From positions 62,001-126,000 of the forward strand of contig NZ_JAFEWC010000002.1 of the NCBI RefSeq assembly GCF_017355875.1: DNA of 64,000 nt, in the 5' to 3' direction. The DNA is from Aridibaculum aurantiacum (GTDB lineage Bacteria > Bacteroidota > Bacteroidia > Chitinophagales > Chitinophagaceae). Positions 3,829 through 64,000 of this stretch are shown in pieces. Every line of letters starts with the position of its first letter. Position 1 is the stretch's first letter. Under the pieces are notes generated by a model, which saw only the letters and a list, made by a program, of their open reading frames with translations, was not told the DNA's origin and made no database searches. The position numbers were made by a program, and so were the translations under genes.

Positions 3829-6132
3829 TCAATACTTCGATACAGGTAGCAGTATATAAAACGTAGCTCCTTTGTGCAATTCACCTGATGCCCAGATATA
3901 ACCCTGGTGATTATCTACTACTTTCTTCGCAATAGAAAGACCAACCCCTGTTCCTGAATATTCGGCCTTGCCATGCAGTCGTTTGAACATCCCAAATATT
4001 TGTTCAGCATACTGTTGCTCGAAGCCGATACCGTTGTCTCTAATTTCCACCTGGTGGTATTTTTTCTGTAGCTCATCAGCGGGGAGTTCAATATGTGTTT
4101 TTACATCCGCACCATTTACCAGGCTGTATTTGATAGCTATTTCAGGTGGCACTCCCGGCTTTGAATATTTAAGCGCATTATTCACCAGGTTGTAAAATAA
4201 CTGCTGAAGCTGGCGCTTGTTACCATGAACTACCGGCATTGTATCTACAGTAAACCTTGCTCCTTTTTCCTCAATGGAGAGTTCAAGGTCTGCAAGCACT
4301 TTTTGAACTTTTACATTCAAGTCTACCTGTGCCATTTCACGCGGCCGTTCGCTTACATGAGAAAATTCAAGGAGATCATCTACCAGTAGTTCTAATCTTT
4401 GAGCAGATGTTTCTATACGCTTCATCAGGTTGCTGGATGATTCATCTACACGTTCTGCTAGTTTCACTTTCAACCTGTCAGTAAACGTGCGGATCTTACG
4501 AAGTGGCTCCTTCATGTCGTGCGAAGCTGCGTGGGCAAATTCTTCCAGGCTTTGATTAGAGCGTTTCAATTCTTCTACCAGTCGCTCCTGTTGCAGCTGT
4601 GCTTCTTTTATAGGAGTTACATCCGTAAATACATGTATCAGGTTTTCGTGATCCATTCTTGACACACTTAGTTCCAACCACCGGTTTGTTAATTGGAAAT
4701 AGTATTGCGTAATAAAAGGTTCACCTGTTTCCAGTGTTTTTTTACACATCTGGAAATAAGGAGACTCTAAAAGCGCAGGCTCAATTTCAGAAGCGAGTTT
4801 AGTTAAATAAATATCCCTTGGTAAGCCTGCAATGGCAACTGCGGCATCATTAGCCAGGATGGTGCGACAGTCTATGATATTGCCATCGGTATCACGAACA
4901 AATTCTGTAACCGATATACCATTGGATGAGCCTGCAAGAATATTATCCAGCAGTCTTTTTTGCTCTTCTATTTTCTCTGCAGCAGTCTTTTGCTCCATAA
5001 CATCTTCAAAGGTTATCACCAGTCCATTATCACCAACCTTCACTGAAGAGATATCAAACCATGCATTCAGTCCTTCTCCTTTATACTTAATATCAAACCT
5101 TGCCGGTACTCCCGTTTCAATCACCTTGCAGTGCGTATCATAAATACCATTGGCAACTGCAGTCGGAAACAGTTGCCGCATCGTTTTTCCAAGTACTTCC
5201 TCTTCATTTTTCCCGATCATCTGCTTGAACATCTCGTTGATCTGGGTGTATTGCAGGTCTAATATCTTGCCTTCTTCATCTCGTATAGCCTCACAGGTAC
5301 ACACAGCATTAAGCGATGCATTGAAAATACTATTGAGATAATCTGATTGTTGTTGCAGAACTTTTTGTGATTCTTTCAACTCGGTTATGTCGCTAAGCAT
5401 AGCAAGAAAACCATCATCCAATTTTACAGTAGAAATACAAAGCCATTTCATCGAGCGTTCTACGTATTGTTCCCGTTGAATGGATGTTCCGTTTTCTACC
5501 ACCGATACATACTTTTCAAAAGCAGCTGGCGAGCCTAGCATTTGGAGTATCTCGCTAAACTTCATCTGTTCACCTTCTGCTTCTGTTAATCCCAGCAGGA
5601 TGTTACGTTGCTTATTGTAAACCCTTAGTTTGAAATCTTGAATTACACCGTCGTCATCTCGTATTGCCTCGAATACAGCTATGCCTATTGGTGCACTCGC
5701 TACTATCGATTCCATGGTTCGGCGTGTTGCCTGTTCTCTCTTTTCCGCCTCCCGCTGTGCGCCACGGTCACGGGTGATGCTAAGCACACCATGATTATGT
5801 GGCTGTCGAACCGTTTCGTAGACACGGTTGGTAAAATGAGCAACAAACGTATATTCCTTCACCTCACCACTTTCATATACATCCAGGTAGTGTTTAAAAT
5901 TTCCGGGGGCACTTTGTGCGGATGGTACACCATCCCGCAGCAGGCGTAGTCCTACCAGGTTTCCCTGAGGATGGCCAACACCTTCAATAGCCGCTTTATT
6001 AGCATAGCCTACTTCAAAATCTTCAACTGTTCCATCATCGTTCTTGATGGGAAACACCCATATCAGCGGGTCGGGCACAAGGAACAATACGGACGCCTCA
6101 AGGGAAGAAGTTTTTGGTTCAAGACTGATCAT
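3829..6132 (-). CDS. Multi-PAS sensor histidine kinase
   Basis: A 767-residue predicted soluble kinase with about four PAS-like sensor domains in series (roughly 15-125, 140-255, 265-385 and 395-510), each ending in an LSDITELKE- or FTDVTPIKE-type linker. They are followed by HisKA (H-box ASHDMKEPLRK, His near 538) and HATPase_c (N-box NLVNNALKY, then DNGIGF and GTGVGLS). The start is an ATG and no signal peptide or membrane segment is visible. No receiver gene is adjacent, so the partner is unknown. The kinase core resembles that of 557-2530, suggesting paralogues, but the sensor part is different. Confidence 0.85.
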   Translation of the reverse strand: MISLEPKTSSLEASVLFLVPDPLIWVFPIKNDDGTVEDFEVGYANKAAIEGVGHPQGNLVGLRLLRDGVPSAQSAPGNFKHYLDVYESGEVKEYTFVAHFTNRVYETVRQPHNHGVLSITRDRGAQREAEKREQATRRTMESIVASAPIGIAVFEAIRDDDGVIQDFKLRVYNKQRNILLGLTEAEGEQMKFSEILQMLGSPAAFEKYVSVVENGTSIQREQYVERSMKWLCISTVKLDDGFLAMLSDITELKESQKVLQQQSDYLNSIFNASLNAVCTCEAIRDEEGKILDLQYTQINEMFKQMIGKNEEEVLGKTMRQLFPTAVANGIYDTHCKVIETGVPARFDIKYKGEGLNAWFDISSVKVGDNGLVITFEDVMEQKTAAEKIEEQKRLLDNILAGSSNGISVTEFVRDTDGNIIDCRTILANDAAVAIAGLPRDIYLTKLASEIEPALLESPYFQMCKKTLETGEPFITQYYFQLTNRWLELSVSRMDHENLIHVFTDVTPIKEAQLQQERLVEELKRSNQSLEEFAHAASHDMKEPLRKIRTFTDRLKVKLAERVDESSSNLMKRIETSAQRLELLVDDLLEFSHVSERPREMAQVDLNVKVQKVLADLELSIEEKGARFTVDTMPVVHGNKRQLQQLFYNLVNNALKYSKPGVPPEIAIKYSLVNGADVKTHIELPADELQKKYHQVEIRDNGIGFEQQYAEQIFGMFKRLHGKAEYSGTGVGLSIAKKVVDNHQGYIWASGELHKGATFYILLPVSKY

Positions 6133-51900: not shown

Positions 51901-52384
51901 ACAATTAAAATTTAAAGGTTAGAATATTATTTACTTATGGCTCCAGCGTATGTTTCCCCGTTTCTTAAGATGCTTGTAGGAACGGCAACTTTACAACCAG
52001 TTTCAAAAAGTGGACGAAGATATGCTTATAAGGGTAAATACGCTGCTTGATCAATGATTGTCATGCCGCGGCCTCCTTGCTTCCCCAACTTTCGGTAGTG
52101 TCCCTTATGGCAAACCAGCTTTCCGTAGTGTCTCCAGCTCAGTTTTCGAAGTCTTCCGTAGGAACACCTCAATCTTCCCTGGCAGCAGGGTTATCCCGCA
52201 ACAGAATTACCACCTCCAGGGCAAGCTATTCACCTGGATGGGCGGGATACCGCATCAGCCTCACCTTTGATAGCAGCGGCATTTTCTCTATTCGCCGACC
52301 AGTCCAGCGGGACAATATTTGTTTTCAACATAGGGTGAACAACAAGTTGGCCCCCTTCTATTCTTATGTCATTATTTTGAACAT
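51901..52384. other. Intergenic region before the riboswitch
   Basis: About 480 bases. The first part is the promoter region of the small basic gene. Around 52080-52250 are the phrases TTTCGGTAGTGTCCC, TTTCCGTAGTGTCTCC and TCTTCCGTAGGAACACC, three loosely related units that resemble the CCTTCCGTACTGCAGGGTCCC part of the MITE-like repeat. No gene is seen. A promoter for the riboswitch transcript must lie near 52330-52380 but could not be identified with confidence. Confidence 0.35.
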
Positions 52385-52550
52385 GATACGGTTCCCGCCA
52401 CGGCGGGATTTAAAGGGAACCAGGTGCAAGTCCCGGACTATCCCCGTAGCTGGGAGCTCCTATCATGGTTGTCATCTTCAAGCCACTGTTCTTAAAAGAA
52501 CGGGAAGGCTATGAACAACGGAGCAAGTCAGAAGACCTGCCGCATTCAAT
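52385..52550 (+). ncRNA. Adenosylcobalamin (B12) riboswitch
   Basis: Conserved elements appear in order: the P1/P2-side GGTTCCCGCC-GGCGGG hairpin, GGGAACCAGGTGCAAGTCCCGGAC (in part), the CCCCGTAGCTGG loop, GCCACTGT, CGGGAAGGC, and the B12 box AGTCAGAAGACCTGCC (about 52526-52541). It lies 132 bases upstream of dut. The 52551-52681 stretch with a GCACTC-TATCCGC-GAGTG hairpin is the probable expression platform. When adenosylcobalamin is abundant it should lower expression of the dut-nrdB-nrdA operon. Confidence 0.93.
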
Positions 52551-52681
52551 TTAGTAACAATGCTTTCGGAGGAAAAGTAGGTACTGATCGTTACGCCCTT
52601 CTATCGGCTCAGCCTTCAGCTTCCTGCACTCTATCCGCGAGTGTTACAGTAATAAACTAACAAGATGAATTAATAATTATC
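52551..52681 (+). promoter_or_regulatory. Riboswitch expression platform / 5' leader of dut-nrdBA
   Basis: The leader contains CGGAGGAAAAGTAGG, TCGTTACGCCC, a CACTC-GAGTG hairpin (about 52627-52643) and an AT-rich run into the dut ATG. No T-tract terminator is evident, so control is more likely at translation initiation; this is inference. Confidence 0.5.
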
Positions 52682-53125
52682 ATGCTACATACAGATATAT
52701 CCATCATCAACCGATCAACCAATCCATTGCCTGAATATGCCACCGAAGGATCTTCAGGTATGGACATCAGGGCTTTTGTAAACGAGGTGGTGACTTTAGA
52801 ACCGCTGCAACGAGCTTTGATACCAACAGGTCTTTTTTTAGAACTGCCAGCTGGTTATGAAGCGCAGATACGCCCAAGAAGCGGCCTGGCCATCAAACAG
52901 GGAATTACCTGCCTGAATACGCCGGGTACCATAGATGCAGATTACAGGGGTGAGATAAAAGTGATCCTGGTTAATCTTTCGAATGAACAGGTAACCATCA
53001 ACAATGGCGATAGAATAGCGCAAATGGTGTTTCAGAAAGTGGAGCGGGTACAGTTGAGAGCGGTAGAAGAGATCAATGTTACCGAAAGAGGTGCAGGAGG
53101 ATTTGGACATACCGGCAAGAATTAA
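52682..53125 (+). CDS. dut: dUTP diphosphatase
   Basis: A 147-residue trimeric dUTPase with all five motifs: SSGMDIRA (1), [11 protein letters not shown] (2), [11 protein letters not shown] (3, with the catalytic Asp), [11 protein letters not shown] (4) and the C-terminal [11 protein letters not shown] (5). It hydrolyses dUTP to dUMP, limiting uracil in DNA and supplying dTMP synthesis. It is the first gene behind the B12 riboswitch and 29 bases before nrdB, so nucleotide reduction and dUTP removal are produced together. Confidence 0.95.
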
Positions 53126-53154
53126 AATACAGTTGAAATAACAATAAACGTTTT

Positions 53155-54129
53155 ATGGGATTATTTGATAAAAGAATTAATTACAAGCCATTCGAGTACC
53201 CGGAAGTATTGCAGTTTACTGAAGCAATCAACAAATCGTTTTGGGTACACTCAGAAGTGGATTTTACCGCTGATGTGCAGGACTTTCACTCTCACCTTAC
53301 CGAAAGTGAACAAAGCGCTATCAAGAACAGCTTACTCACCATTGCACAAATTGAAGTATCGGTAAAGTCTTTCTGGGGCAACTTGTACAATCATTTTCCA
53401 AAGCCGGAGTTGAATGGACTGGGTACCACTTTCGCCGAATGCGAATTCCGCCACTCAGAGGCCTATTCGCGTTTGCTGGAGGTTCTAGGCTACAATGATG
53501 AATTTGAAAAACTGATAGAAGTGCCGGTTGTGAAGCAGCGTCTGGCATTCCTATCCGGTGCATTAAGTAAGGTTAATTCAAGCGACCAGAGAGAATATGT
53601 CATTTCATTGATCCTGTTCACCATCCTGATTGAAAACGTATCCCTGTTCAGCCAGTTTGCTGTCGTGCTTTCTTTTACGCGGTTTAAAGGGCTGATGAAA
53701 AACGTAAGCAACATCATTGCATGGACGTCGGTAGATGAACAACTGCATGCAAACGCAGGTATTTATCTTATCAATAAATTGAGGGAGGAATATCCAGAAT
53801 TGATTGACGATGCTTTGATAGAACAAACAACCAACCTGATAACAGATTTCATCGAAATTGAAGAACAGATCATCGACTGGATCTTCCAGGAAGGCGAGAT
53901 TGATACGATCACGAAAAGCGACCTGTTGAATTTTATAAAATTCAGGGTAGATGAATGTTTGCAAAAAATCAATTTTCCTGAACAGTTCTTCATTAGCCAC
54001 AGTCAATACGAGCCGATGAAGTGGTTTGAAGAAGAAGTTTTTGCCAACAGCCTGGATGACTTCTTCGCTAAGCGACCGGTAGAATATACCAAGCACGATA
54101 AGAGCATTACGGCCAACGACTTGTTTTAA
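53155..54129 (+). CDS. nrdB: Class I ribonucleotide reductase, small (radical) subunit
   Basis: A 324-residue subunit that houses the diiron-tyrosyl cofactor. Metal ligands are visible in DFTADVQDF (Asp), AQIEVSV (Glu), AECEFRHSEAY (Glu-x-x-His, with the radical Tyr after His), and later EQLHANAGIY (Glu, His). Length is normal for NrdB. It works with NrdA, encoded 37 bases downstream, in an alpha2beta2 complex reducing ribonucleoside diphosphates. Activity requires oxygen, unlike class II enzymes, which explains the riboswitch control. Confidence 0.94.
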   Translation: MGLFDKRINYKPFEYPEVLQFTEAINKSFWVHSEVDFTADVQDFHSHLTESEQSAIKNSLLTIAQIEVSVKSFWGNLYNHFPKPELNGLGTTFAECEFRHSEAYSRLLEVLGYNDEFEKLIEVPVVKQRLAFLSGALSKVNSSDQREYVISLILFTILIENVSLFSQFAVVLSFTRFKGLMKNVSNIIAWTSVDEQLHANAGIYLINKLREEYPELIDDALIEQTTNLITDFIEIEEQIIDWIFQEGEIDTITKSDLLNFIKFRVDECLQKINFPEQFFISHSQYEPMKWFEEEVFANSLDDFFAKRPVEYTKHDKSITANDLF

Positions 54130-54166
54130 GCAATCACATTTAATTAGAACGCAAAAGATTTTCGAT

Positions 54167-55852
54167 ATGGATATTGTAACACCACTGATTTCTAAAACGC
54201 CCCTGACAGAAAAATACTGGTGGAAAAATGAAGAGAGTGAGCAGATGCTCAATCGTGGTTACCTGTTAAAAGGCGAAACGGTAGATGGCGCTATAGAACG
54301 TATTTGTAAGGCTGCTGCACAGCGGTTGTATAAACCTGAGCTAGCGGAGTCTTTTCGCGAAATGATCGAGCGGGGATGGATGAGTTTAAGCTCGCCTATT
54401 TGGGCTAATATGGGTACGGAGCGGGGGCTGCCTATTTCCTGTTTCAATGTGCATATACCCGACAATATTGAGGGCATTACACACAAGCTGGGCGAGGTGA
54501 TCATGCAAACAAAAATAGGCGGCGGTACTTCTGCTTATTTTGGCAGTTTGCGTGGTCGTGGCAGCGCCGTTACTGATAATGGTAAAAGCAGTGGTGCAGT
54601 TAGCTTCATGCGGCTGTTTGATACAGCCATGGACACTATATCGCAAGGTGGTGTAAGACGTGGTGCATTTGCAGCCTACCTCGATATAGACCACCCGGAT
54701 ATTGAAGAGTTTTTGAAAATTAAAAGTATCGGGCACCCTATCCAGAATTTGTTCAATGCTGTTTGCATACCCGATTACTGGATGCAGGACATGATCGATG
54801 GTGATATATCCAAGAGAGAAATATGGGCGAAGGTGCTGGAAAGCCGCCAGCAAAAAGGTTTGCCTTATTTGTTCTTTACCGACAACGTAAATAAAGAAAG
54901 GCCGCAGGTTTATAAAGATCATAACTATACCATCAACGCCAGCAACCTGTGCAGCGAGATCATGCTGCCGTCTAACAATGATGAGTCGTTCATCTGTTGC
55001 CTCTCTTCCATGAACCTGGAATTGTATGATGAATGGAAGGATACAGATGCGGTGCGCCTCGCTATCTTCTTTTTAGATGCGGTATTACAGGAGTTCATCA
55101 ACAAGACAGAAGGCAATTATTACCTGGCAAGTGCTAACCGCTTTGCCAAAAGGCATCGTGCTTTGGGATTGGGTGTTTTAGGATGGCATTCTTACCTGCA
55201 GAAAAACATGATCCCTTTTGAGGGTTTAAGATCCAAACAACTCACCACGGCCATCTTCAGCGATTTGCGCGAAAAAGCCGACAAAGCCTCGGCCGACCTT
55301 GCCCGCATTTATGGTGAACCGGATCTGTTGAAAGGATATGGTCGTCGCAACACTACCACTTTAGCGATTGCGCCTACCACTTCCTCATCGGCTATCCTGG
55401 GACAAAGCTCGCCAGGTATCGAGCCATTCAGCAGCAATTACTTTAAAGCAGGATTGGCGAAAGGTAATTTTATGCGCCAAAATAAATACCTGAAGCAATT
55501 GCTGGAGTATAAGGGAATCGATACGGAAGATATCTGGCGGAGCATTATGCTGAACCATGGTAGCGTACAGCACCTGAAAGAATTGGCCAGGGAGGAAAAG
55601 GATGTATTCAAAACCTTTAAAGAGATCAGCCAGTTGGAGATCATCCAACAAGCCTCCATCCGCCAGAAATACATCGACCAGGGACAAAGCCTGAACCTGA
55701 ACATACCACCTAATCTGCCGGTAAAAGAAGTAAACAAACTAATGATCGAAGCATGGCAGCTAGGCATTAAAACATTGTATTACCAACGCAGCCAGAGTGT
55801 ATCAAAAGAAATGGTGACAAACCTTGTTACCTGCTCCAGTTGCGAAGCATAA
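54167..55852 (+). CDS. nrdA: Class I ribonucleotide reductase, large (catalytic) subunit
   Basis: A 561-residue catalytic subunit. Visible are ISCFNVHIP (substrate-site Cys), GGGTSAYFGSLRGRGS, the catalytic NASNLCSEI (Asn, Cys and Glu of the radical active site), TTSSSAILGQSSPGIEP, the Tyr-Tyr pair of the radical pathway in TLYYQRSQS, and the mobile C-terminal CSSC reduced by thioredoxin. The length is short for NrdA because the N-terminal ATP-cone is absent, so allosteric dATP inhibition may be lacking or different. It is the last gene of the riboswitch operon, with a strong terminator downstream. Confidence 0.94.
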   Translation: MDIVTPLISKTPLTEKYWWKNEESEQMLNRGYLLKGETVDGAIERICKAAAQRLYKPELAESFREMIERGWMSLSSPIWANMGTERGLPISCFNVHIPDNIEGITHKLGEVIMQTKIGGGTSAYFGSLRGRGSAVTDNGKSSGAVSFMRLFDTAMDTISQGGVRRGAFAAYLDIDHPDIEEFLKIKSIGHPIQNLFNAVCIPDYWMQDMIDGDISKREIWAKVLESRQQKGLPYLFFTDNVNKERPQVYKDHNYTINASNLCSEIMLPSNNDESFICCLSSMNLELYDEWKDTDAVRLAIFFLDAVLQEFINKTEGNYYLASANRFAKRHRALGLGVLGWHSYLQKNMIPFEGLRSKQLTTAIFSDLREKADKASADLARIYGEPDLLKGYGRRNTTTLAIAPTTSSSAILGQSSPGIEPFSSNYFKAGLAKGNFMRQNKYLKQLLEYKGIDTEDIWRSIMLNHGSVQHLKELAREEKDVFKTFKEISQLEIIQQASIRQKYIDQGQSLNLNIPPNLPVKEVNKLMIEAWQLGIKTLYYQRSQSVSKEMVTNLVTCSSCEA

Positions 55853-55876
55853 ATAAGCAGGCTAAAAACATAACCG

Positions 55877-55924
55877 CAGGTTCCCTTTAATTGCACATGT
55901 AATAGAAGGGAACCTGTTTTTATT
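55877..55924 (+). terminator. Intrinsic terminator of the dut-nrdBA operon
   Basis: 11-bp stem CAGGTTCCCTT/AAGGGAACCTG, a long AT-rich loop of about 17 nt, then TTTTTATTT; 25 bases after the nrdA stop. Confidence 0.85.
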
Positions 55925-56245
55925 TGGGGGAAATGCTGATGTATAACCCCTTCCTTGTGAATCTATTAAATCAAACATGGTAAGAAGACTACACCACTTC
56001 GTACTACTACGATTAACAGCATGTAATTGTAGCCCGACGGAGGATATTCAACCAGGTGTTATTTCCTGCAGATATTGGGAGAACAGAGGATGGAGGGAGA
56101 ACAGGAACAGGTTTGAACAAGTATAGATGAAAACAGGAAGCGTATTGTGGCAATAACAAAAGTGTTACCTAAAGCAGCATAATACATTGTCAGTTATGCT
56201 GTCAATATTTATTTCATACATTGTGGATAGATGACAATACACACG
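55925..56245. other. Intergenic region on the left of the cassette array
   Basis: About 320 bases between the nrdA terminator and the first GTTG box. If the array is an integron-type structure, this is where an attachment site and possibly the array promoter would lie. A TGATGACAATACACACGTTGG-like context surrounds the box (56230-56250, in part). No integrase gene and no matching long palindrome half were found on this side. Confidence 0.35.
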
Positions 56246-56252
56246 TTGGCTG
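56245..56252 (+). other. Cassette 1 left box (GTTGGCTG), putative attachment site
   Basis: The exact complement of CAGCCAAC at 57375-57382, the box right after the stop of the cassette 1 gene. In circular form the two would pair as in an integron attC site. Recombination would be expected after the G at 56245. Confidence 0.6.
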
Positions 56253-57570
56253 TAACCAAATTTCAAACCTCATGGCAAAACGAGACCCAGAAAAAACTGC
56301 AAGAAACAAGGTTATTAAGGAACTAAAGGAGAAATTGAGAGCATTACTACCGAGTGTTTTAGAAGCAACAGGATTTGAATCAGAATACTCCCTACATGGA
56401 AAGATTGGAGGAAAGTTTGGCCAATATCTTGATATAAAAAATGTGGTAGTTGACTCTCCCCAACAGTTTATAGCACTTTGGCTTGACGGCTTCAAGAATT
56501 ACATAAGAAAAAACATTGACCCCAGATGGAGAGAAGGGAACAATCATTATGAGACTTACAAACTGTTACAGAAACACAAGGTTTTTCAAGACTATCTTTA
56601 CCTGTTTTTAGAAAGAACGTACATAAAGCATATAGATGCTCTTTCGAAAAAGAGACCTACTATTGAAGAAGCTGAAATATGGATAGGACAAGCAAATGCT
56701 AATTACGGTATTTTGGTGACACCAAGATTTAATGGAACTAATTGGGAAAATGACAAAAGTGAAATCAGACATTTCCCCCATAGATATTGGTCAATTGGTC
56801 ATATTTTAGCCACAGGCTTAGTTGTTCCTTTTAAGAATGCGAAGTTGGAGTTTAAAACGGTAGAAGAATACCTAAACTTTTTCACAAATGTTATAGTTAG
56901 AAATTCAGGCTCCGAGTACGAGTACAAGCTTGCTGAAATGTATTCAATATATGTTAATGCGGCTGAAAATCCTCATGAAATACCCTTGCTTATACCTGAA
57001 TTTCGATATGACGGTCTTGCCAAAAAGCACAAATACCGTCTTGACTTCACGATAATTGAAGCTTCACAGTTGAATAAGATAGGTTTTGAATTGTCTCCTT
57101 GGTCAACTCATGGATACTTGTCAAAAACAAAATCTATGTCTCAAGAACAAATAAATGATGTGGCAAAAGGGAATTTTGAAAATGAAATGTCGAAACATAA
57201 AAGCTACTTCAAGAAACATGGAATATTTGTCTTAATTTATACAGATTTCGATTTGAAGGATTTGGATTCTGTGTTTCGGGATATGGAACTTTATTTACGA
57301 CCAAAATCTGTAGGCAGTCAAATGAAATTCCACATCTTTAATGACTTTTTCAATGACCCACTTTGACTTGGCAGCAGCCAACATGCGTAATTGTGCAAAT
57401 GCGGCAGAATGTTGACAGCTTCGGCTGCTGTTCATTATTTCTGCTGCTGTTTCGGCGGTAGAATATCTATTAAACTTTAGTAAGTAATCATCAACAGCAG
57501 TATCTTTAGGCAAGCATTTGTTCAGGCTGAATGTTCCCTGAATACCACACCTGCACAAATACGTCCAACG
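56246..57570 (+). mobile_element. Putative gene cassette 1 (integron-type)
   Basis: Runs from TTGGCTG to the G before TTGCCTG. It holds one gene with a 26-nt leader and 8 nt between stop and right box, then most of an imperfect palindromic site. Matching ends differ in sequence from those of cassettes 2 and 3. Confidence 0.65.
56272..57366 (+). CDS. Cassette 1 protein: possible PD-(D/E)XK nuclease, defence candidate
   Basis: A 364-residue protein, AT-rich against the neighbouring nrd genes. The N-terminal part (1-80) is helical and charged (KELKEKLRALLPSVLEATGF, in part). The C-terminal part has IPEFRYDG, then YRLDFTII (Asp258) and IGFELSPWSTHGYL (Glu273), followed by a helical stretch and GIFVLIYTDFD, an order compatible with a restriction-endonuclease-like fold: Asp, then Glu on the next strand. 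I do not recognise the family. An upstream in-frame TTG at 56221 lies outside the cassette, so ATG 56272 is preferred. Function is unproven; defence is inferred from its neighbours and from the fold suggestion. Confidence 0.65.
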   Translation: MAKRDPEKTARNKVIKELKEKLRALLPSVLEATGFESEYSLHGKIGGKFGQYLDIKNVVVDSPQQFIALWLDGFKNYIRKNIDPRWREGNNHYETYKLLQKHKVFQDYLYLFLERTYIKHIDALSKKRPTIEEAEIWIGQANANYGILVTPRFNGTNWENDKSEIRHFPHRYWSIGHILATGLVVPFKNAKLEFKTVEEYLNFFTNVIVRNSGSEYEYKLAEMYSIYVNAAENPHEIPLLIPEFRYDGLAKKHKYRLDFTIIEASQLNKIGFELSPWSTHGYLSKTKSMSQEQINDVAKGNFENEMSKHKSYFKKHGIFVLIYTDFDLKDLDSVFRDMELYLRPKSVGSQMKFHIFNDFFNDPL

Positions 57571-57578
57571 TTGCCTGC
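57375..57578 (+). repeat. attC-like imperfect palindrome, junction of cassettes 1 and 2
   Basis: CAGCCAAC-ATGC, then GTAATTGTGCA (57387-57397) pairs with TGCACAAATAC (57552-57562; one mismatch), then GTCCAAC-GTTGCCTGC (57570-57578). About 155 bases of partly symmetrical spacer lie between. The layout follows R''-L''-spacer-L'-R' of attC sites, but at about 200 bp it is longer than usual. Confidence 0.65.
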
Positions 57579-59015
57579 AATGTTACTATGACACCCGAAC
57601 TTTCAATATTATTAGGCTCTGGATTTTCTGTGCCCGAGGGTTTACCGACAGTTTCGTCTATCAATAATAAACTTCGTAATCTTAAGGAGAACGACTTTTA
57701 TCTAACCTCAGCGCAAACAGCGGGATTTTATAATTCTGACTGGCGTGACCCTAATGACTGGTCTTCTTACACAGACAAACATTTTGCCCAAGAATTTACC
57801 ACCTTCTATCGAGATGTAGTTTTGAATGGCGATGTTGAGGCATTTAATTATGAAGTTTTCTACGACTATATTACCGACTTTTTAAGGTACAAGAAGGATG
57901 ATAATAGAATAAGCAAATTCTGTGATGAATTCCGAAAGCCATTTCACAAAAAAAGTTTCTTAGATGACGACCACAATCTTGTCTGGCGATTTTGTAAAAT
58001 TTTAAATCAGCTTGTAGCAGACTTGTTAGTAGTGCCACGTTTTTATGAAGACGTCAGCTATTTGAACTACCCACCATATGACCCATTTTTCGGGTTTATC
58101 AGAGAAAATTTGACAGACAGGACTGTCAACGTTCATACTTTGAACCATGATTTATTTTTTGACCATATGGCTAACAAGCATTCAGACCTTTGGCAAAACT
58201 TCACAGATGGTTTTTCTGAATATGGTTCGCCTTATTACGGTCAAATTTCGATAGACCACAAAACATCTGATGGAGTGATTCATAAAACTTACATGGTTCG
58301 ATTGAGATTTTATACTGGTGACTACGACAACAAATTACGTTTGTTCAAACTTCATGGCAGCATAGACAATTGTATACTTCACAATACAAGAACGGGTGAG
58401 ACAGTAAGAGTTAAACGAGGATTTGGAGTTACAGACTTTTACATGGAACGGTTTGATGAGGAAGCAAAAAAATACGCATATGAAGCCCCTTTTGCTGAAA
58501 ATGAGCCGGATTATTTAACAGGAACGACAGAAAAGATTAGACAATATAATCAACCCTTCTACGAGAACTTGTTTACTCATTTCAAAAAAAATCTTTTAAA
58601 CTCAAATTTGCTTCTTGTTATTGGATACGGGTTTCAGGACAAGGGAATTAATGAATTTATTGAAAACAATTTCCTTATTTATAACAAGCCAGTTGTAGTA
58701 ATAGACATAAATAAACCTAATTCGTATATTTTTCAAAAGTATCAAGACCAGATTACATTTTCTTCTAAAGGAGCTACAGGAGTTCCCTTTGAGGAATTTA
58801 TGTCTTGGAAAAAATGAAACACAGCAGGCAACATCGGCTTGCTGCTATTGAGGGGCGACGAATAGGCTGCCAGCTATAAATCGCCAATCGGCAGCAGTTT
58901 GTTCAGACGGAACACAGATGAACATTCAAAATAGACATTAACTTTTGTACATTTATCAGCAGCCGTTCTGGGCTGGATAAGCAATGAATACCGCCACAGC
59001 AGCAAGCCCTGTCCG
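57571..59015 (+). mobile_element. Putative gene cassette 2 (integron-type)
   Basis: Starts at TTGCCTGC; the gene begins 17 nt later and ends 6 nt before GCAGGCAAC (58824-58832), the exact 9-bp complement of GTTGCCTGC at 57570-57578. Confidence 0.68.
57588..58817 (+). CDS. SIR2-family NADase-like protein (cassette 2)
   Basis: A 409-residue stand-alone SIR2-like domain protein. NAD-site motifs are ILLGSGFSVPEGLPT (7-21), VHTLNHDLFFD (Asn186), LFKLHGSID (His256) and LLVIGYGFQDKGINE (342-356). The Asn and His needed for NAD hydrolysis in defence SIR2 proteins such as ThsA are both present, so depletion of NAD on phage infection is a plausible activity. No second domain is fused, unlike most defence SIR2s, so a sensor may be lacking or supplied by a neighbour. 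ATG 57588 begins just inside the cassette; the extended frame starting at 57531 would cross the junction and is rejected. Confidence 0.82.
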   Translation: MTPELSILLGSGFSVPEGLPTVSSINNKLRNLKENDFYLTSAQTAGFYNSDWRDPNDWSSYTDKHFAQEFTTFYRDVVLNGDVEAFNYEVFYDYITDFLRYKKDDNRISKFCDEFRKPFHKKSFLDDDHNLVWRFCKILNQLVADLLVVPRFYEDVSYLNYPPYDPFFGFIRENLTDRTVNVHTLNHDLFFDHMANKHSDLWQNFTDGFSEYGSPYYGQISIDHKTSDGVIHKTYMVRLRFYTGDYDNKLRLFKLHGSIDNCILHNTRTGETVRVKRGFGVTDFYMERFDEEAKKYAYEAPFAENEPDYLTGTTEKIRQYNQPFYENLFTHFKKNLLNSNLLLVIGYGFQDKGINEFIENNFLIYNKPVVVIDINKPNSYIFQKYQDQITFSSKGATGVPFEEFMSWKK

Positions 59016-59024
59016 TTGTGTGCA
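58824..59024 (+). repeat. attC-like imperfect palindrome, junction of cassettes 2 and 3
   Basis: GCAGGCAAC-ATC, GGCTTGCTGCT (58836-58846) pairs perfectly with AGCAGCAAGCC (58998-59008), then CTGTCC-GTTGTGTGCA (59015-59024). It is about 201 bp, the same size as the first junction, with a shared TTTGTTCAG-x-C-x-GAA segment inside. Confidence 0.68.
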
Positions 59025-59042
59025 ATCTTCAACCCTTTGATT

Positions 59043-59675
59043 ATGGAAAAAGATACAATGACAGCACGCCTAATTCTGAACTTGAACGGCGAAACCAAGG
59101 GATATGTACTTTGGAATGATACTGAAGCTTATTATGAAAAACTTCGGTCTGCCTATAAAGACATATCAGACAATAAAAAAAATGACTACCTATATTTTAG
59201 CTTCTTTACACTTTGCGCAGCAACCTTGGAGTACTCTTTGAACTTTCTATTGACGGATTTCTGTTTAAATCATTATGGACATGAGAACTATAAAGCTTAT
59301 GCAGAGGGTTATATTAATTTGCCTTTTGCCAAAAAGCTTCTAATGACACCAACAATTATTTCAAATGGACGATATACATTCAATACTAAAACGGCAACCT
59401 ATAAAACGTTATGTGAACTAATAACCTTAAGGAATAAAATACTGCATAATAAAGAGTTTCTGAAGACGTTTGACACACCACCAATGACGCTTGAAAACAA
59501 CCAAGAATCAGTCAACTTTGAAATTCTAAAAGAGCCCAATCATATAGACAGATTAAACAAGTTGTCTTGTTTGAACTATGGAAAAGCACTTGGACAATTC
59601 AAAAATATGGTCATGGATTTAGCTATAGCTCATGACTTGACAGAAAATGAAATCATAGTGAAAATTGCTAACTGA
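59043..59675 (+). CDS. HEPN-like protein (cassette 3)
   Basis: A 210-residue helical protein with RNKILH (Arg130 to His135), the R-x4-H motif of HEPN ribonucleases, in a LITLRNKILHNKEFL helix context that is usual for HEPN domains. A second, N-terminal helix pair and TLEYSLNFLLTDF precede it. HEPN proteins commonly act as RNases in defence and toxin-antitoxin systems, but many R-x4-H proteins are inactive. ATG 59043 is 27 nt after the cassette boundary; ATG 59058 is possible. A toxin without a visible antitoxin inside the cassette would be unusual. Confidence 0.65.
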   Translation: MEKDTMTARLILNLNGETKGYVLWNDTEAYYEKLRSAYKDISDNKKNDYLYFSFFTLCAATLEYSLNFLLTDFCLNHYGHENYKAYAEGYINLPFAKKLLMTPTIISNGRYTFNTKTATYKTLCELITLRNKILHNKEFLKTFDTPPMTLENNQESVNFEILKEPNHIDRLNKLSCLNYGKALGQFKNMVMDLAIAHDLTENEIIVKIAN

Positions 59676-59676
59676 C

Positions 59677-59720
59677 TGCACACAACAATCGTATTTGTGC
59701 AAGTGCGGCAGAATGTTGAC
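59677..59720 (+). repeat. Left half of an attC-like site after cassette 3
   Basis: TGCACACAAC-AAT, CGTATTTGTGCA and AGTGCGGCAGAATGTTGACAGC. Nearly identical over 35 bases to 57384-57420. Its inner arm is perfectly complementary to the inner right arm of the first junction site (57552-57563). Confidence 0.65.
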
Positions 59721-59771
59721 AGCTTCAGCTTTAGTTCATGACCAAGCGAAGGAACTAGTATGAACCTATAA

Positions 59772-60938
59772 TCACTTGCCAACTGCACTTTCCACCAGGT
59801 CCACCAATTGCCCTATCATGCGTGGCTCCAGCCAGCGGGTAACAATCACCAGGTCGTTTTTGCTATCAATTACAATAAAGTTTCCACCAAATCCTTCGGC
59901 TGCATATACAGTTTTGGATAGCTTTCCCAGGTGACCATCTTCATTGGTCCACCATAGCATGCCATAGGTTTTGTTAGCTGCTGTTGTTTCGGTTACTCCG
60001 TTCACCCATCTCTCTGAAAGCAACTGTTTTTCCTGCCATTTTCCCCGGCGGGCAAATAGCAAACCAAAACGTGCCTGATCCAATGTATTGATGAATATTC
60101 CGCCACCAAAATGGCCGCCGCCGCTTACGGATTGCATCATCAGGCCGTCTACATTCACAAATGAATTTTCATAGCCATACCAGCGCCAGGTAGAAGAGGC
60201 GCCAATCGGGTCCATGATCTTTTCTTTAAGCACCATCGGCAATGGCTTGCGCCACACTTGCAACAAGGCGTAAGCCAATGCATTTATCCGTACATCATTG
60301 TATTTGTACACAGTGCCTGGTTCATTCAGCTTTCTTGCCCGCCATTCATCGATGCTGCCGGTGCGCGGCGGACGATCGGCCCAGTCGCATATATCAAAGA
60401 GGCAGCCCGACCAGTCGGATGATTGGTGCAGCATATGCCGCCACGTGATCTTTTGATTATGTGCGCCTTCAAAGGTTTCATCCCATACATATTGGCTTAC
60501 CTTATCATCAAGGCTGCGGATCAAACGTGCATCCTCTGCAAGACCGGCAACGGTAGAGAGGTAACTTTTGGCAACGCTAAACGTCATGTCCATCCTGTCT
60601 ACGTCTCCCCACTGTGCGACGATAAACCCATTCTTAATGATCAAACCGGCAGGCTTACCGCGGTCTTTCATCGGGCCTATGATCTTGTAGTTGGGTTCGC
60701 GGGCATTAACGCCAAACGCCTTGATGTTAGCCAGCCGCATGTCGTAGTCCATGTTCACTTCGTTGTTGATGGCAAAGCGTACGGCACTATCAATAAGGGC
60801 TGCATCCAGCTTTAGCTGCTGAGGCGTCCTTGTCTGCCAAACCGAATCAGGGAAGTAGAGCTTTTGGCCATAGATTACCTGGAGACACAGGAAAGACAAT
60901 GACAGGAAAAGGATAGATCTTTTTACACAACTATTCAT
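59772..60938 (-). CDS. Serine hydrolase of the beta-lactamase (class C-like) family
   Basis: A 388-residue exported enzyme with signal peptide (ILFLSLSFLCLQVIYGQ). Penicillin-binding-type motifs are Ser121-x-x-Lys124 in TFSVAKSYLS, Tyr-x-Asn in TVYKYNDVRIN and a HFGGG-type third element near GGGHFGGGIFI. Such proteins include D-Ala-D-Ala hydrolases, esterases and beta-lactamases; the substrate cannot be told from sequence. It is convergent with the cassette array, whose right end lies 12 bases beyond its stop, and divergent from the membrane protein gene. Confidence 0.85.
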   Translation of the reverse strand: MNSCVKRSILFLSLSFLCLQVIYGQKLYFPDSVWQTRTPQQLKLDAALIDSAVRFAINNEVNMDYDMRLANIKAFGVNAREPNYKIIGPMKDRGKPAGLIIKNGFIVAQWGDVDRMDMTFSVAKSYLSTVAGLAEDARLIRSLDDKVSQYVWDETFEGAHNQKITWRHMLHQSSDWSGCLFDICDWADRPPRTGSIDEWRARKLNEPGTVYKYNDVRINALAYALLQVWRKPLPMVLKEKIMDPIGASSTWRWYGYENSFVNVDGLMMQSVSGGGHFGGGIFINTLDQARFGLLFARRGKWQEKQLLSERWVNGVTETTAANKTYGMLWWTNEDGHLGKLSKTVYAAEGFGGNFIVIDSKNDLVIVTRWLEPRMIGQLVDLVESAVGK

Positions 60939-61193
60939 ACTTCAAGGTAAGAGATTACCAACACACGAACATTCAATATGAGCCAGATTCTATTCTGCAA
61001 TGGAGATAGAAAAGTAGCGTGGATGAACTAAGCGGTTTACATTCTATTATGTCAATGGCAACTTCATGCTGTGCAGTTGATATAGTTGGTGATAAGAACG
61101 AACACAGAAACATAATGATGGCCGGTTGTCGATCGCCAGGGTTTTGCAATACTATTGCACCCCTAAATCCCTTAGTAAACCGCTTAGCTACCT

Positions 61194-61811
61194 ATGTCAA
61201 CCAAACAGCTTCATTACATATCAGGCCTCATCATTACTGTTTTCGTAGGCCTTCATCTATTCAATCATGTTTGCAGTCTATTTGGGCCAGCCAGGCATAT
61301 AGAAGTAATGACGTTCCTCAGACTGATTTACCGCAACCTTGTTGTTGAAGCCATTTTATTGATGGCGGTTTGTGTCCAGGTTTATTCGGGGCTAAAGCTT
61401 TTTAAACAGAATAGGAGAACGGCTACTGCTGCATTCGACAAGTTGCATATATGGTCGGGCTTGTACCTGGCTATATTCTTTGTTATTCATGTTAGTGCAG
61501 TTTTCACAGGGCGAATTTTTTTACACCTCGATACCAACTTCTATTTTGGAGTAGCGGGCATGAATAGTTTTCCGACAAGCTTGTTTTTCATCCCTTATTA
61601 TACCCTTGCCCTTCTTTCATTTTTTGGTCACATTGCTGCAGTGCATAATAAAAAAATGAAGCGGGATGTATTTGGTTGCAGGCCTGTTGATCAATCCAAA
61701 CTGGTATTAGCTGCCGGCATCTGTACAACGGTTGTAATACTATACGGCCTTACCAATCATTTTCATGGATTTGATATTCCGGCAGCTTATAATATAATGA
61801 TAGGAAAATGA
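61194..61811 (+). CDS. Polytopic membrane protein with conserved His residues
   Basis: A 205-residue protein with about five hydrophobic helices. His residues are placed within or near helix ends (LHYISG, GLHLFNHV, DKLHIWSG, FVIHVSAVF, FFGHIAAVHN), an arrangement suggestive of b-type haem ligation, as in succinate dehydrogenase-type or cytochrome b561-type subunits. No family was recognised with certainty. The start ATG at 61194 is preceded by 255 bases with no gene. It stands alone. Confidence 0.65.
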   Translation: MSTKQLHYISGLIITVFVGLHLFNHVCSLFGPARHIEVMTFLRLIYRNLVVEAILLMAVCVQVYSGLKLFKQNRRTATAAFDKLHIWSGLYLAIFFVIHVSAVFTGRIFLHLDTNFYFGVAGMNSFPTSLFFIPYYTLALLSFFGHIAAVHNKKMKRDVFGCRPVDQSKLVLAAGICTTVVILYGLTNHFHGFDIPAAYNIMIGK

Positions 61812-62109
61812 GCGAAAGCACAGTGAGTGCTGACGAAGGAGGCGTCCGCTGAAGTTTCTGGTTTAGATGTTTCTGGTTCCTGGTTTTTGTCATGCCGACG
61901 AAGGAGGCATCCCATCAAGTTTATAAACAAAAAAAGCATAGTGCTACCAGAACCTGTTCGCACTTCGTATCTCGTACCTGCTAAAATAGTTTGAAAGCAG
62001 GCCTGGTGTTTGAAGATCAGAAAAGTGGATCATCTGCGGGTTTAGCTGGATACGCTAGCGACTCGTGTTAAGGTGGTTGTAGCCTTTGGCTAAGCTCAAA
62101 AAGCGGTAG
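61812..62109. other. Intergenic region, 298 bases
   Basis: Two copies of a GACGAAGGAGGC-x-TCC phrase (61831 and 61900), with the sense GTCATGCCGACGAAGGAGGCATCCC resembling phrases at 31199-31235. A short AGCC-TTT-GGCT hairpin is near 62080. No gene is seen. Confidence 0.4.
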
Positions 62110-63387
62110 ATGAAAACAACATACTTTTTCCTGCTTTCCATAATCTTGTTTGCTGCCTGTTCCCCGGCCAGGAATACTGCTGCTCGTGGAAGAATTGCTT
62201 TAACCAATGTTACCATAGTTGATGTAAGAAATGGTGGCCTGCTTCCCAACCAGGCTGTAGTTATTGAAGGAGACAGGATAATCGAAACAGGGTACGCGTC
62301 CAGCGTGCGAATAGCGCGGGGTACTTCGGTTATTGATGCACAGGGTAAATACCTGGTACCCGGCCTGTGGGATATGCATGTACACCTTGAACTAGCCACC
62401 AAACAATCGCTGCCCTATTTTATTGCTTACGGTGTTACGGGGGTAAGAGACATGGGCGCCAATTCTCTTGATACGATAAAGCAGTGGAGAAATGAAATTG
62501 AGCAGGGTAAACAGGTAGGGCCGCATATCATTGCTCCCGGGCCTATAATAGACGGGCCGTTTTTTGTGAATGAACTGCGTGTAACGGTTAACACACCGGC
62601 TGAGGCACGCAAAGCCGTTGACTCGCTGGTAGCACTGGGAGTAGACTTTATCAAGGTGCATCAACAAATATCGAAAGATGCCTACCTGGCGCTGGCAGAC
62701 CAGGCTGCAAAACACAACATAGCTTTCGTGGGACACAAGCCTGCTTCACTGCCCCTGCAAGCGGTTATTGAGGCCGGGCAAAGCAGCATTGAACATGTGC
62801 TGTTTACACCAGGCCTAAACGACACTACTATCTCGATGATGAAAGATGCCGGAACATTCTTTACACCAACGCTATTGATAATAGACAAGATCGCACGCTA
62901 TAATGACTCGTCATTACGCAATGATAAACGCTTAGGCCAGGTTTCACCCATACTAAAACACCATTGGCAAAAGCAAACAGAAGCATGGGGCGACAATGTG
63001 AGCAAGACAGTGGAATACATGCAAAGTATGATGCCGGTCATGCAACAACGTACTGCCTCCATGCAAAGAGCCGGCGTTCCTTTACTAGCAGGAACAGACA
63101 TGGCCATCCCCTATGTCTACCCGGGAAGCAGCCTTCACGAAGAACTGGAGTTGCTGGTGAGGTCAGGTCTTTCGCCACTACAGGCGCTGCAGGCGGCAAC
63201 CATCAATCCTGCACGGTTTTTTAAAAAGGAAGCTGAAACTGGTTCTATACATAAGGGTAAGCGCGCCGACCTGGTACTGCTAAACGCAAATCCTTTACAG
63301 GATATATCCAATGCTAAAGATATCAACCTGGTAATCTTTAATGGGAAGGTGTATGACAGGAAAAGTCTTGATGCCATCCTGGAGTAG
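62110..63387 (+). CDS. Amidohydrolase-family lipoprotein (imidazolonepropionase-like)
   Basis: A 425-residue predicted lipoprotein (signal LLSIILFAACSPA, Cys17). The metal-dependent hydrolase core is intact: His90-x-His92 in WDMHVHLE, a Lys in DFIKVHQQI (the carboxylated-Lys position), His in AFVGHKPA, His in SSIEHVLF and Asp in LLAGTDMAI. It probably binds two metals. It ends with the usual N-terminal/C-terminal beta-sandwich (GSIHKGKRADLVLLN). Relatives hydrolyse imidazolonepropionate, dipeptides or other amides, and a periplasmic or surface location suggests a scavenging role. Substrate is unknown. Confidence 0.88.
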   Translation: MKTTYFFLLSIILFAACSPARNTAARGRIALTNVTIVDVRNGGLLPNQAVVIEGDRIIETGYASSVRIARGTSVIDAQGKYLVPGLWDMHVHLELATKQSLPYFIAYGVTGVRDMGANSLDTIKQWRNEIEQGKQVGPHIIAPGPIIDGPFFVNELRVTVNTPAEARKAVDSLVALGVDFIKVHQQISKDAYLALADQAAKHNIAFVGHKPASLPLQAVIEAGQSSIEHVLFTPGLNDTTISMMKDAGTFFTPTLLIIDKIARYNDSSLRNDKRLGQVSPILKHHWQKQTEAWGDNVSKTVEYMQSMMPVMQQRTASMQRAGVPLLAGTDMAIPYVYPGSSLHEELELLVRSGLSPLQALQAATINPARFFKKEAETGSIHKGKRADLVLLNANPLQDISNAKDINLVIFNGKVYDRKSLDAILE

Positions 63388-63470
63388 TTTGAGCATATTC
63401 ATTATTGTCAAAAGACCCCTTTGTAGTCGTACAATTGATTGGTTAAAATCCACAGGATAAGTAGTTATTG

Positions 63471-63587
63471 TCCGTCTGGGATCTTCGAAGGGACCTTATA
63501 CACTTTAGGATGGTCTACCGATGCCTTCCGTACTGCAGGATCCCTGGCAATGGCACAGGAGGCTTGAAGGAGACCCGCAAGGATTAA
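63471..63587 (+). repeat. MITE-like repeat, copy 3
   Basis: GTCCGTCTGGGATCTTCGAAGGGACC (in part) start, CGATGCCTTCCGTACTGCAGG middle (in part) and CTTGAAGGAGACCCGCAAGGA end. Confidence 0.7.
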
Positions 63588-63603
63588 ATTTTCTAAATAA
63601 ACA

Positions 63604-63736
63604 GCTCAGGCCGCATGGCCTCGTTACTGCAACGGGACTCCGTCCGCTTCTTTCAAACAAAGCTGCGCAATGTTTGAATGTCTCGTTGCACTCGACACCG
63701 AACCGGCCTAATGTCCCTTATGCAGTAACTGTTGTA
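63604..63736 (-). repeat. 133-bp dispersed structured repeat, copy 3 (inverted)
   Basis: Reverse complement of 2721-2853; identical over long runs (for example CAAACATTGCGCAGC and GTGTCGAGTGCAACG in complement). Confidence 0.75.
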
Positions 63737-63784
63737 GAGAGTAGAATAGTAGGAGCAAAAAATTTCATCAAGTAAATGAACATT

Positions 63785-63908
63785 TTTGTCCGTCTGGGGT
63801 CTCCGAAGGGACACCGGACAATCGAGGGATGATCTAACGAATGCCTTCCGTACTGCAGGGTCCCTGACATTCGCACAGTAGGCTTGAAGGAGACCCCGCA
63901 GGGACAAA
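63785..63908 (+). repeat. MITE-like repeat, copy 4 (best-preserved ends)
   Basis: Ends 63785-63804 and 63889-63908 are inverted repeats with 17 of 20 bases matching (TTTGTCC..GGGGTCTCC against GGAGACCCC..GGGACAAA). The 124-bp length and lack of an open frame fit a miniature inverted-repeat element. Confidence 0.75.
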
Positions 63909-64000
63909 GCTGTACGTCTTGTCACTAGCAGGATGACCTTGTGCATATAACAAAAATCAATCTTGAACAACAATAGATAGCTGCTGTCTAACCTCCAGCA

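Follow-up and report, generated by a model that had tools for sequence, protein, structure and literature searches.

The window analysed here is a stretch of 64,000 nucleotides (nt) of the Aridibaculum aurantiacum genome (contig NZ_JAFEWC010000002.1), and the element in question is a row of three single-gene cassettes from 56245 to about 59741, each with its own complementary ends. A preliminary description, made from the letters alone, had taken this row for a non-canonical integron-like cassette array. The array consists of an attI-like site, two full attC-like sites and one half site, and an integrase gene is absent at the locus. Its features, in window coordinates, are listed below.

56142 to 56247, forward strand: attI-like site heading cassette 1; it aligns with the head sites of sister arrays on contig C1 (L009, about 4600-4708) and contig C3 (L010, about 4504-4610); no integrase gene here
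56245 to 57569, forward strand: cassette 1, from GTT to the next GTT; box pair GTTGGCTG/CAGCCAAC; A/G at position 11; re-pairing at positions 12-15
56272 to 57366, forward strand: gene 1, open reading frame (ORF) of 364 aa; function unknown
57368 to 57583, forward strand: attC-like site 1 (R'' to R', about 200 nt type); it folds, and seven more near-full-length copies lie in the genome at 79-87% identity
57570 to 59014, forward strand: cassette 2; box pair GTTGCCTGC/GCAGGCAAC; A/G at position 11; re-pairing at positions 12-15
57591 to 58817, forward strand: gene 2, 408 aa, SIR2-like (PF13289 SIR2_2, E 3.8e-6; PADLOC SIR2, 3.7e-13)
58818 to 59029, forward strand: attC-like site 2, with R and L arms
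59015 to 59741, forward strand: cassette 3, with a truncated end; box pair GTTGTGTGCA/TGCACACAAC; A/G at position 11; positions 12-13 pair
59043 to 59675, forward strand: gene 3, ORF of 210 aa; function unknown
59677 to 59741, forward strand: half of an attC-like site, with the R''-L'' side present and the right half absent; this 67 nt repeat (D1) shares 82% identity with the left end of site 1 and has a short match to the first junction

The three box pairs lie within 1-2 nt of where the preliminary description had placed them. The box GTTGGCTG begins at 56245 and CAGCCAAC ends at 57382, GTTGCCTGC begins at 57570 and its partner ends at 58832, and GTTGTGTGCA begins at 59015 and its partner ends at 59686. 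The A/G at position 11 is present in all three cassettes. Inner arms had also been said to pair across the junctions, and they do so in site 2 (58836-58853 with 58991-59008) and in the fold of site 1. Three end-matched cassettes had been described; the site that follows the third gene is just a half. In the 3.8 kb region nine box pairs of 8-10 nt were found against 4.1 in Markov shuffles, and the pairs of the window taken alone are weak evidence. They are nevertheless considered real because the first junction recurs at seven places in the genome, three arrays share a head site, and the ends pair in 168 cassettes.

Sister arrays and the cassette as a repeated unit

The seven matches of the first junction fall into two clusters, on C1 and C3, with 9 and 13 box-paired units, respectively, in addition to the 3 of the window. 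The box-pair rule overlooks some units, for example in L010 13300-16700. The search for further sites of the same plan, which the preliminary description had proposed, was thus positive. The genes of the sister arrays are mostly different from those of the window, and its idea of a non-canonical integron-like array is strongly supported by such like sites carrying other genes elsewhere. In all 25 cassettes of this genome the longer ORF lies on the array strand. The same attI-like DNA of about 110 nt stands at the head of all three arrays, as homologous sites. Between the C1 and window arrays the homology extends about 240 nt upstream, and neither adjoins a recombinase. The first unit of the C3 array is preceded, at a distance of 114 nt, by the end of a gene for a tyrosine recombinase of 311 aa, P0001. 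The preliminary remark that there is no integrase is therefore right for the window locus, but not for the genome. A block of about 260 nt is repeated upstream of the C1 array (L009:2909-3629) and the C3 array (L010:2454-2717).

The cassette itself was found as a repeat. One unit is common to C1 and C3: its copies align with 96.4% identity over 774 columns, beginning 7 nt ahead of GTT and stopping at the next GTT. At another locus, L055, a gene-less unit of 475 bp occurs as four copies in four contexts (7406, 9717, 16368, 17606). Between two of them identity is 100% over 475 nt, in a stretch that opens 1 nt ahead of GTT and closes with the end of the next GTT. Among the six pairings of these copies, three start 1-2 nt before GTT, and the other three extend leftward by a further 12, 15 and 43 nt, into preceding sites that resemble each other. 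The gene-less unit is a possible promoter or spacer cassette. Such GTT-to-GTT repeats would be the traces expected from cassette insertion and point to the cassette as the mobile unit. No cassette shared between species appeared in the unit-repeat comparison.

The P0001 recombinase family and its linkage to arrays

Five Phage_integrase genes, P0001 among them, were found in the genome, and two separate genes (L173 and L175) are Xer-like. Recombinase matches at E ≤ 1e-40 are present in 43 of 117 genomes of the organism's taxonomic family (its own included), the best match being at least 41% identical in 40 of these. A profile of the recombinase family at E ≤ 1e-75 finds 108 of 395 Bacteroidota genomes; arrays need not be present in all of them. 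R246, K271, H338, R341, H364 and Y373, which we take to be the catalytic residues as in other tyrosine recombinases, are invariant in the 26 rows of alignment A1. The best NCBIfam score of the recombinase is obtained with the XerA model. An AlphaFold2 model of L017 (predicted local distance difference test score, pLDDT, 85) gives its best matches with IntI-DNA complexes and XerA.

The definition of an integron includes an IntI with an additional domain near patch III (PMC9668308, PMC2426708). As judged from sequence, the P0001 family is without this additional (I2) region of about 40 residues. First, the alignment with IntI4 (2a3v) breaks into two pieces, with about 24 query residues against 66 in between; the break between the pieces falls at the place of the additional domain of IntI. 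Second, TIGR02249 matches four IntI controls in one stretch with 431-488 bits, whereas eight proteins of the P0001 type are matched in two stretches with 158-208 bits. Third, 65-68 residues separate the catalytic-K motif from HxxRH in 30 of 30 members, against 107 in IntI controls, of which three of four could be measured. An IntI-type enzyme, which the preliminary description had suggested looking for, was not detected at E ≤ 1e-65 in 114 genomes of the taxonomic family, including the organism's own, nor in 14 control genomes. In another family the same model scored IntI above its cut-off in 32 of 80 genomes, and a classical IntI acting from elsewhere was rejected on these grounds. In a quick tree, IntI alone forms a supported clade and the position of the P0001 family is unresolved; one clade of the family plus IntI, a group named after the first tree had been viewed, was not rejected (approximately unbiased test, p-AU 0.488).

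Among 30 members compared, only P0001 is without an N-terminal domain; the lengths of the others are about 360-430 residues, with one of 475. The domain is tentatively regarded as HARP-like on the basis of its predicted model (pLDDT 92.8), whose top match in the PDB is SMARCAL1 HARP (E 0.19, probability 0.80) and whose six best viral matches include phage HepA-related (E 5.2e-3) and SWI/SNF-related (1.7e-3) proteins. Pfam assigned DUF5710 to 17 of 33 members and HARP to 2 (best E 0.0016). Directly upstream of P0001, a GIY-YIG gene (L010:3165-4493) occupies the place of the N-terminal domain of the relatives. Therefore, the recombinase of this genome is possibly truncated.

Linkage of the recombinase with arrays was determined by the presence of a GTTR box that has a partner of at least 9 nt and starts no more than about 320 nt from the recombinase stop. 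Such a box was found at 17 of 25 loci from the taxonomic family (0.9 expected by shuffling) and at 17 of 25 named loci (1.4 expected), together 34 of 50, against 1 of 22 control recombinases (0.7 expected). Loci with less than 1 kb downstream were skipped (5 of 30 family, 1 of 26 named and 4 of 26 control loci). The named loci, among them Rufibacter, Winogradskyella, Seonamhaeicola, Zunongwangia, Flavobacterium and Algoriphagus, were drawn from the best 80 of at least 590 loci. One of the 25 is a Spirochaetota metagenome-assembled genome (MAG; L133). Of the 80, a further 28 stood outside the test, and several of these are Bacteroidota whose genes are short or split. In the measured loci the first cassette lies 34-300 nt downstream of the integrase stop, and the attI position beside the integrase gene is that of an integron.

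Some loci in other organisms are worth recording. In Rufibacter (L112 11296-18324), about 13 cassettes with sites of mostly about 60 nt, some with extra bases in the left arm, adjoin an I2-less recombinase; this array could be an in-between form. In Oceanirhabdus (L110 2439-13379), repeats of 276-839 bp with 85-92% identity lie near a XerA-like recombinase, and no GTT/AAC box pair is seen downstream of it. In the Firmicutes HGW-8 MAG (L136 611-4552), a chain of GTTAGGCGA-type box pairs lies upstream of another I2-less recombinase. A count of box chains (353 against 175 in one shuffle) was weak and was set aside as proof.

Site anatomy, folding and cargo

For the anatomy of the sites, 136 of 272 were kept (both boxes GTTR, summed match at least 18), and after the removal of L098, L139 and L167, 132 sites from 29 loci were left. 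The distinct rows numbered 125 in the L-arm test, 123 in folding (114 of them long enough for the fold of arms alone), 121 in the count of A>G stems, and 110 + 11 in the count of indels and changes (L stem found in 107 + 9). The canonical control consisted of 20 regions, of which 19 were used and 7 had a chain of at least 4; 31 of its 59 cassettes came from one array (L193), and its rule (7 nt, gap 38-135) is unlike the main rule.

In 168 distinct cassettes from 29 loci, the complementarity of a cassette's own ends reaches 14 nt and is broken in a constant way at position 11, where the left base is A in 162 and the complemented right base is G in 128. Positions 12-14 re-pair in 77, 83 and 74% of the cassettes against 39, 34 and 34% under random re-pairing of ends; pairing at positions 1-8 is set by selection, 9-10 are partly informative and 11-14 are informative. 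No dip at R position 11 appears in the 59 canonical cassettes. The complementary R''/R' ends with their GTT/AAC core are those of an integron cassette. On the other hand, the boxes do not fit RYYYAAC/GTTRRRY, as had been noted at the outset for the window: in the 168 cassettes position 4 is always R (by selection), positions 5-7 are mixed and position 8 is G in 130. There are 117 distinct boxes in 170 cassettes, so that complementarity is kept while the sequence varies.

When the L arms were compared in 14-nt windows, 10 or more positions matched in 116 of 125 distinct sites against 9 of 125 after shuffling, and the right spacer is 2-4 nt longer than the left in 110 of 116. Differences between the L arms are chiefly A>G (163 against 8 G>A), with at least one in 104 of 121 stems and two or three, mostly 3 nt apart, in 59. 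An A>G position gives a T-G pair in the folded bottom strand and an A-C mismatch in the top strand. All attC substrates then known had extrahelical bases, an unpaired central spacer and a variable terminal structure, and the first extrahelical base directs strand choice (PMC2727003). Extra bases were found in 27 of 30 distinct canonical sites (57 on the left and 0 on the right) and in 2 of 2 sites from Calditrichia; most P0001-type sites are without extrahelical bases in L''. The sites of the window likewise miss two attC features, the box consensus and the extrahelical bases in L''.

With DNA parameters, the bottom strand folded better than the top strand in 105 of the 123 reconstituted sites (mean difference 3.1 kcal/mol), and in 110 of 114 when the arms alone were folded. 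The canonical attC controls behaved similarly (32 of 37, mean 3.4 kcal/mol; arms alone, 30 of 37). In the window, the bottom-strand fold proposed as a check by the preliminary description is better by just 0.2 kcal/mol in site 1 and by 1.7 kcal/mol in site 2. The bottom-strand bias and the L-stem excess of A>G and C>T are likenesses to integrons and not differences from them. An Rfam scan of window 52000-64000 gave no family covering the attC-like sites.

The three genes had been called defence-type. This stands for gene 2, although against the NCBIfam model SIR2_antiphage it reaches just 11.5 bits (cut-off 500). Genes 1 and 3 had been read as a nuclease and a HEPN protein; neither gave a match beyond chance in Pfam, PADLOC, NCBIfam or PDB sequences, and SIR2 is the sole supported assignment, as judged from profile matches. 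A conserved syntenic block, which would have spoken against a cassette array, was not found: in 195 genomes of the taxonomic family, genes 1 and 3 have a match in one each, the organism's own, and gene 2 in three. Cassette ends were looked for around the SIR2 relatives L205 and L206, and none was convincing. As read from ORFs, the left-hand neighbours of the array are ribonucleotide reductase genes, and a serine-hydrolase-like gene lies to its right. No empty insertion site was available among ten genomes of the genus, since the left flanking gene is present in one of them, that of Aridibaculum aurantiacum itself. Further left, a Cobalamin riboswitch (52372-52558; Rfam RF00174, 107.9 bits) precedes dUTPase-like and ribonucleotide reductase ORFs.

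Interpretation and significance

We propose, with a probability of roughly 0.75, that the window holds an integrase-less outlier array of a Bacteroidota integron-like system, in which a recombinase of the P0001 family acts on a folded bottom strand. The arrays with matched ends, the attI homology, the linkage with the recombinase family, the absence of I2, the site anatomy and the repeated cassette, as read from the sequences, would all fit this proposal. A cassette would comprise one gene and a recombination site. In the excised circle, its two ends would join into a hairpin site made of an R stem (about 14 bp, with the GTT/AAC boxes), an asymmetric spacer, an L stem and a variable loop. The recombinase would recombine the folded bottom strand at GTT, and cassettes would enter the attI-like site about 30 to 300 nt downstream of the recombinase gene on the same strand. 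The family is without the I2 region by which IntI docks extrahelical bases, and most sites are without these bases. Strand marking probably falls instead to the fixed wobble positions (R11, plus L positions of the kind found in canonical sites) and to the asymmetry of the spacer. Strand reading is perhaps aided by the HARP-like N-terminal domain. For the window array the C3 recombinase would act in trans, provided that a copy without that domain still works. From all this we infer recombination itself, a single-stranded substrate, strand choice and a role of the N-terminal domain.

Several observations weigh against this proposal. At 16 of the 50 linkage loci no paired box lies near the gene; L047, L049, L054 and L131 have arrays further on, and at L053 none was seen. 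Motif spacing and score separate the P0001 family from IntI only and not from Xer recombinases, and the member L127 exceeds the cut-off of NF040815, a 'site-specific tyrosine recombinase/integron integrase' model (226.9 against 220). In the L stems, T>C changes (35 against 3 C>T) favour the top strand and count against a pure strand code. Canonical L stems also show A>G (17) and C>T (13) against one G>A and one T>C. Therefore, the L-stem A>G is not a mark of the P0001-type system, and the idea of a wobble code as such a mark is weakened, since the controls share bottom-strand folding as well. Indels are present in 27 of 107 P0001-type sites without side bias (17 left, 14 right), and the sites of Rufibacter and Pontibacter (Hymenobacteraceae) look partly canonical, 5 of 9 having extra bases (6 left, 1 right). 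The HARP assignment is weak, given the structural E value and the two Pfam matches, and a profile search of PDB sequences with the N-terminal domain did not return HARP; its best match was a designed protein. P0001, lacking the domain of its relatives, may be dead. Neither excision nor a circle nor a comparison of strains was seen, and recombination is predicted from sequence.

The same arrays might be moved by ordinary double-stranded Xer-type recombination, the hairpin being a by-product of inverted core sites. The score with the XerA model and the missing I2, which Xer enzymes also lack (PMC7790495, PMC4792948), agree with it. It is, however, unlikely, as the boxes conserve complementarity and not sequence, and a bottom-strand bias like that of canonical attC has no clear reason in a double-stranded reaction. 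The array could also be a canonical cluster of at least two attC sites with no integrase nearby (CALIN) whose sites have diverged, moved by a classical IntI elsewhere. The common plan of GTT/AAC boxes, hairpin, attI and same-strand single-gene cassettes, the bottom-strand folding and the L-stem A>G excess would suit it, and integrons are known from Bacteroidota. This explanation is quite improbable, because no IntI was found in 114 genomes of the taxonomic family by a model that works in another family, the one-sided extra bases and the smooth R position 11 of canonical sites are not those seen here, and the arrays are adjoined by an I2-less recombinase instead. Immobile tandem genes with dispersed repeats, alike at their ends by chance or gene conversion, would explain the few excess pairs of the window alone but are hardly credible in view of the seven junction copies, the GTT-bounded repeats, the recombinase linkage, the end pairing beyond the selected positions and the shared attI-like heads; chance boxes were ruled out by the first three and by the pattern at positions 11-14.

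The proposed P0001 system very likely works like an integron. As in integrons, including sedentary chromosomal ones and CALIN, which use IntI, attI and attC, there is an integrase gene with an adjoining attI, one-strand arrays of single-gene cassettes, R''/R' and L''/L' arms, a spacer, a variable loop, a GTT core, a GTT-to-GTT unit and a better bottom-strand fold. Unlike in integrons, the integrase is without I2, carries an extra N-terminal domain in most relatives and lies on the same strand as the cassettes; the sites are mostly 120-200 nt, most arrays are without one-sided extra bases, and the R stem of about 14 bp has a fixed A/G at position 11. Set against the definitions that rest on IntI and attC, the system lacks two features that define an integron. 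The family shares the catalytic fold and motif spacing with XerA, XerC and XerD and scores best with the XerA model, but it is found at cassette arrays, mostly with an N-terminal domain, and the organism's own Xer-like genes are separate. It may also resemble the 'integron-like' subgroup of simple tyrosine recombinases, in which the insertion is not fully conserved; cassette arrays of insertion-less members are not described in the available part of that article (PMC8138268).

Integrons in Bacteroidota are not new as such, because integrons or intI genes have been reported from this phylum or the Bacteroidetes/Chlorobi group (PMC8618304, PMC2426708, PMC9024848), and Salinibacter ruber M1 is the one Bacteroidetes genome for which the IntegronFinder 2.0 article names a complete integron (PMC9024848). 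In the accessible literature, which excludes preprints and most subscription papers, no description of cassette arrays with an I2-less integrase or with such sites was found; with this scope, priority is unproven. An I2-less enzyme family with integron-like cassettes suggests a second way to build an integron. We give an even chance to a second integron class across Bacteroidota, whose integrase, lacking I2, would read hairpins that carry no extrahelical bases, perhaps by means of the HARP-like domain and the R11 wobble; this idea is weakened because canonical sites share the L-stem wobble polarity and bottom-strand folding. Such a class would be either a surviving pre-I2 state or an independent invention, and the tree decides neither. 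The integron is thought to have arisen from a Xer-like recombinase that gained the I2 helix, and intermediates have been noted as lacking (PMC7790495). If a large phylum has cassettes served by an I2-less integrase, it would become possible to test how integrons arose. Cassette genes that may be overlooked by surveys based on IntI and canonical attC would also come within reach.

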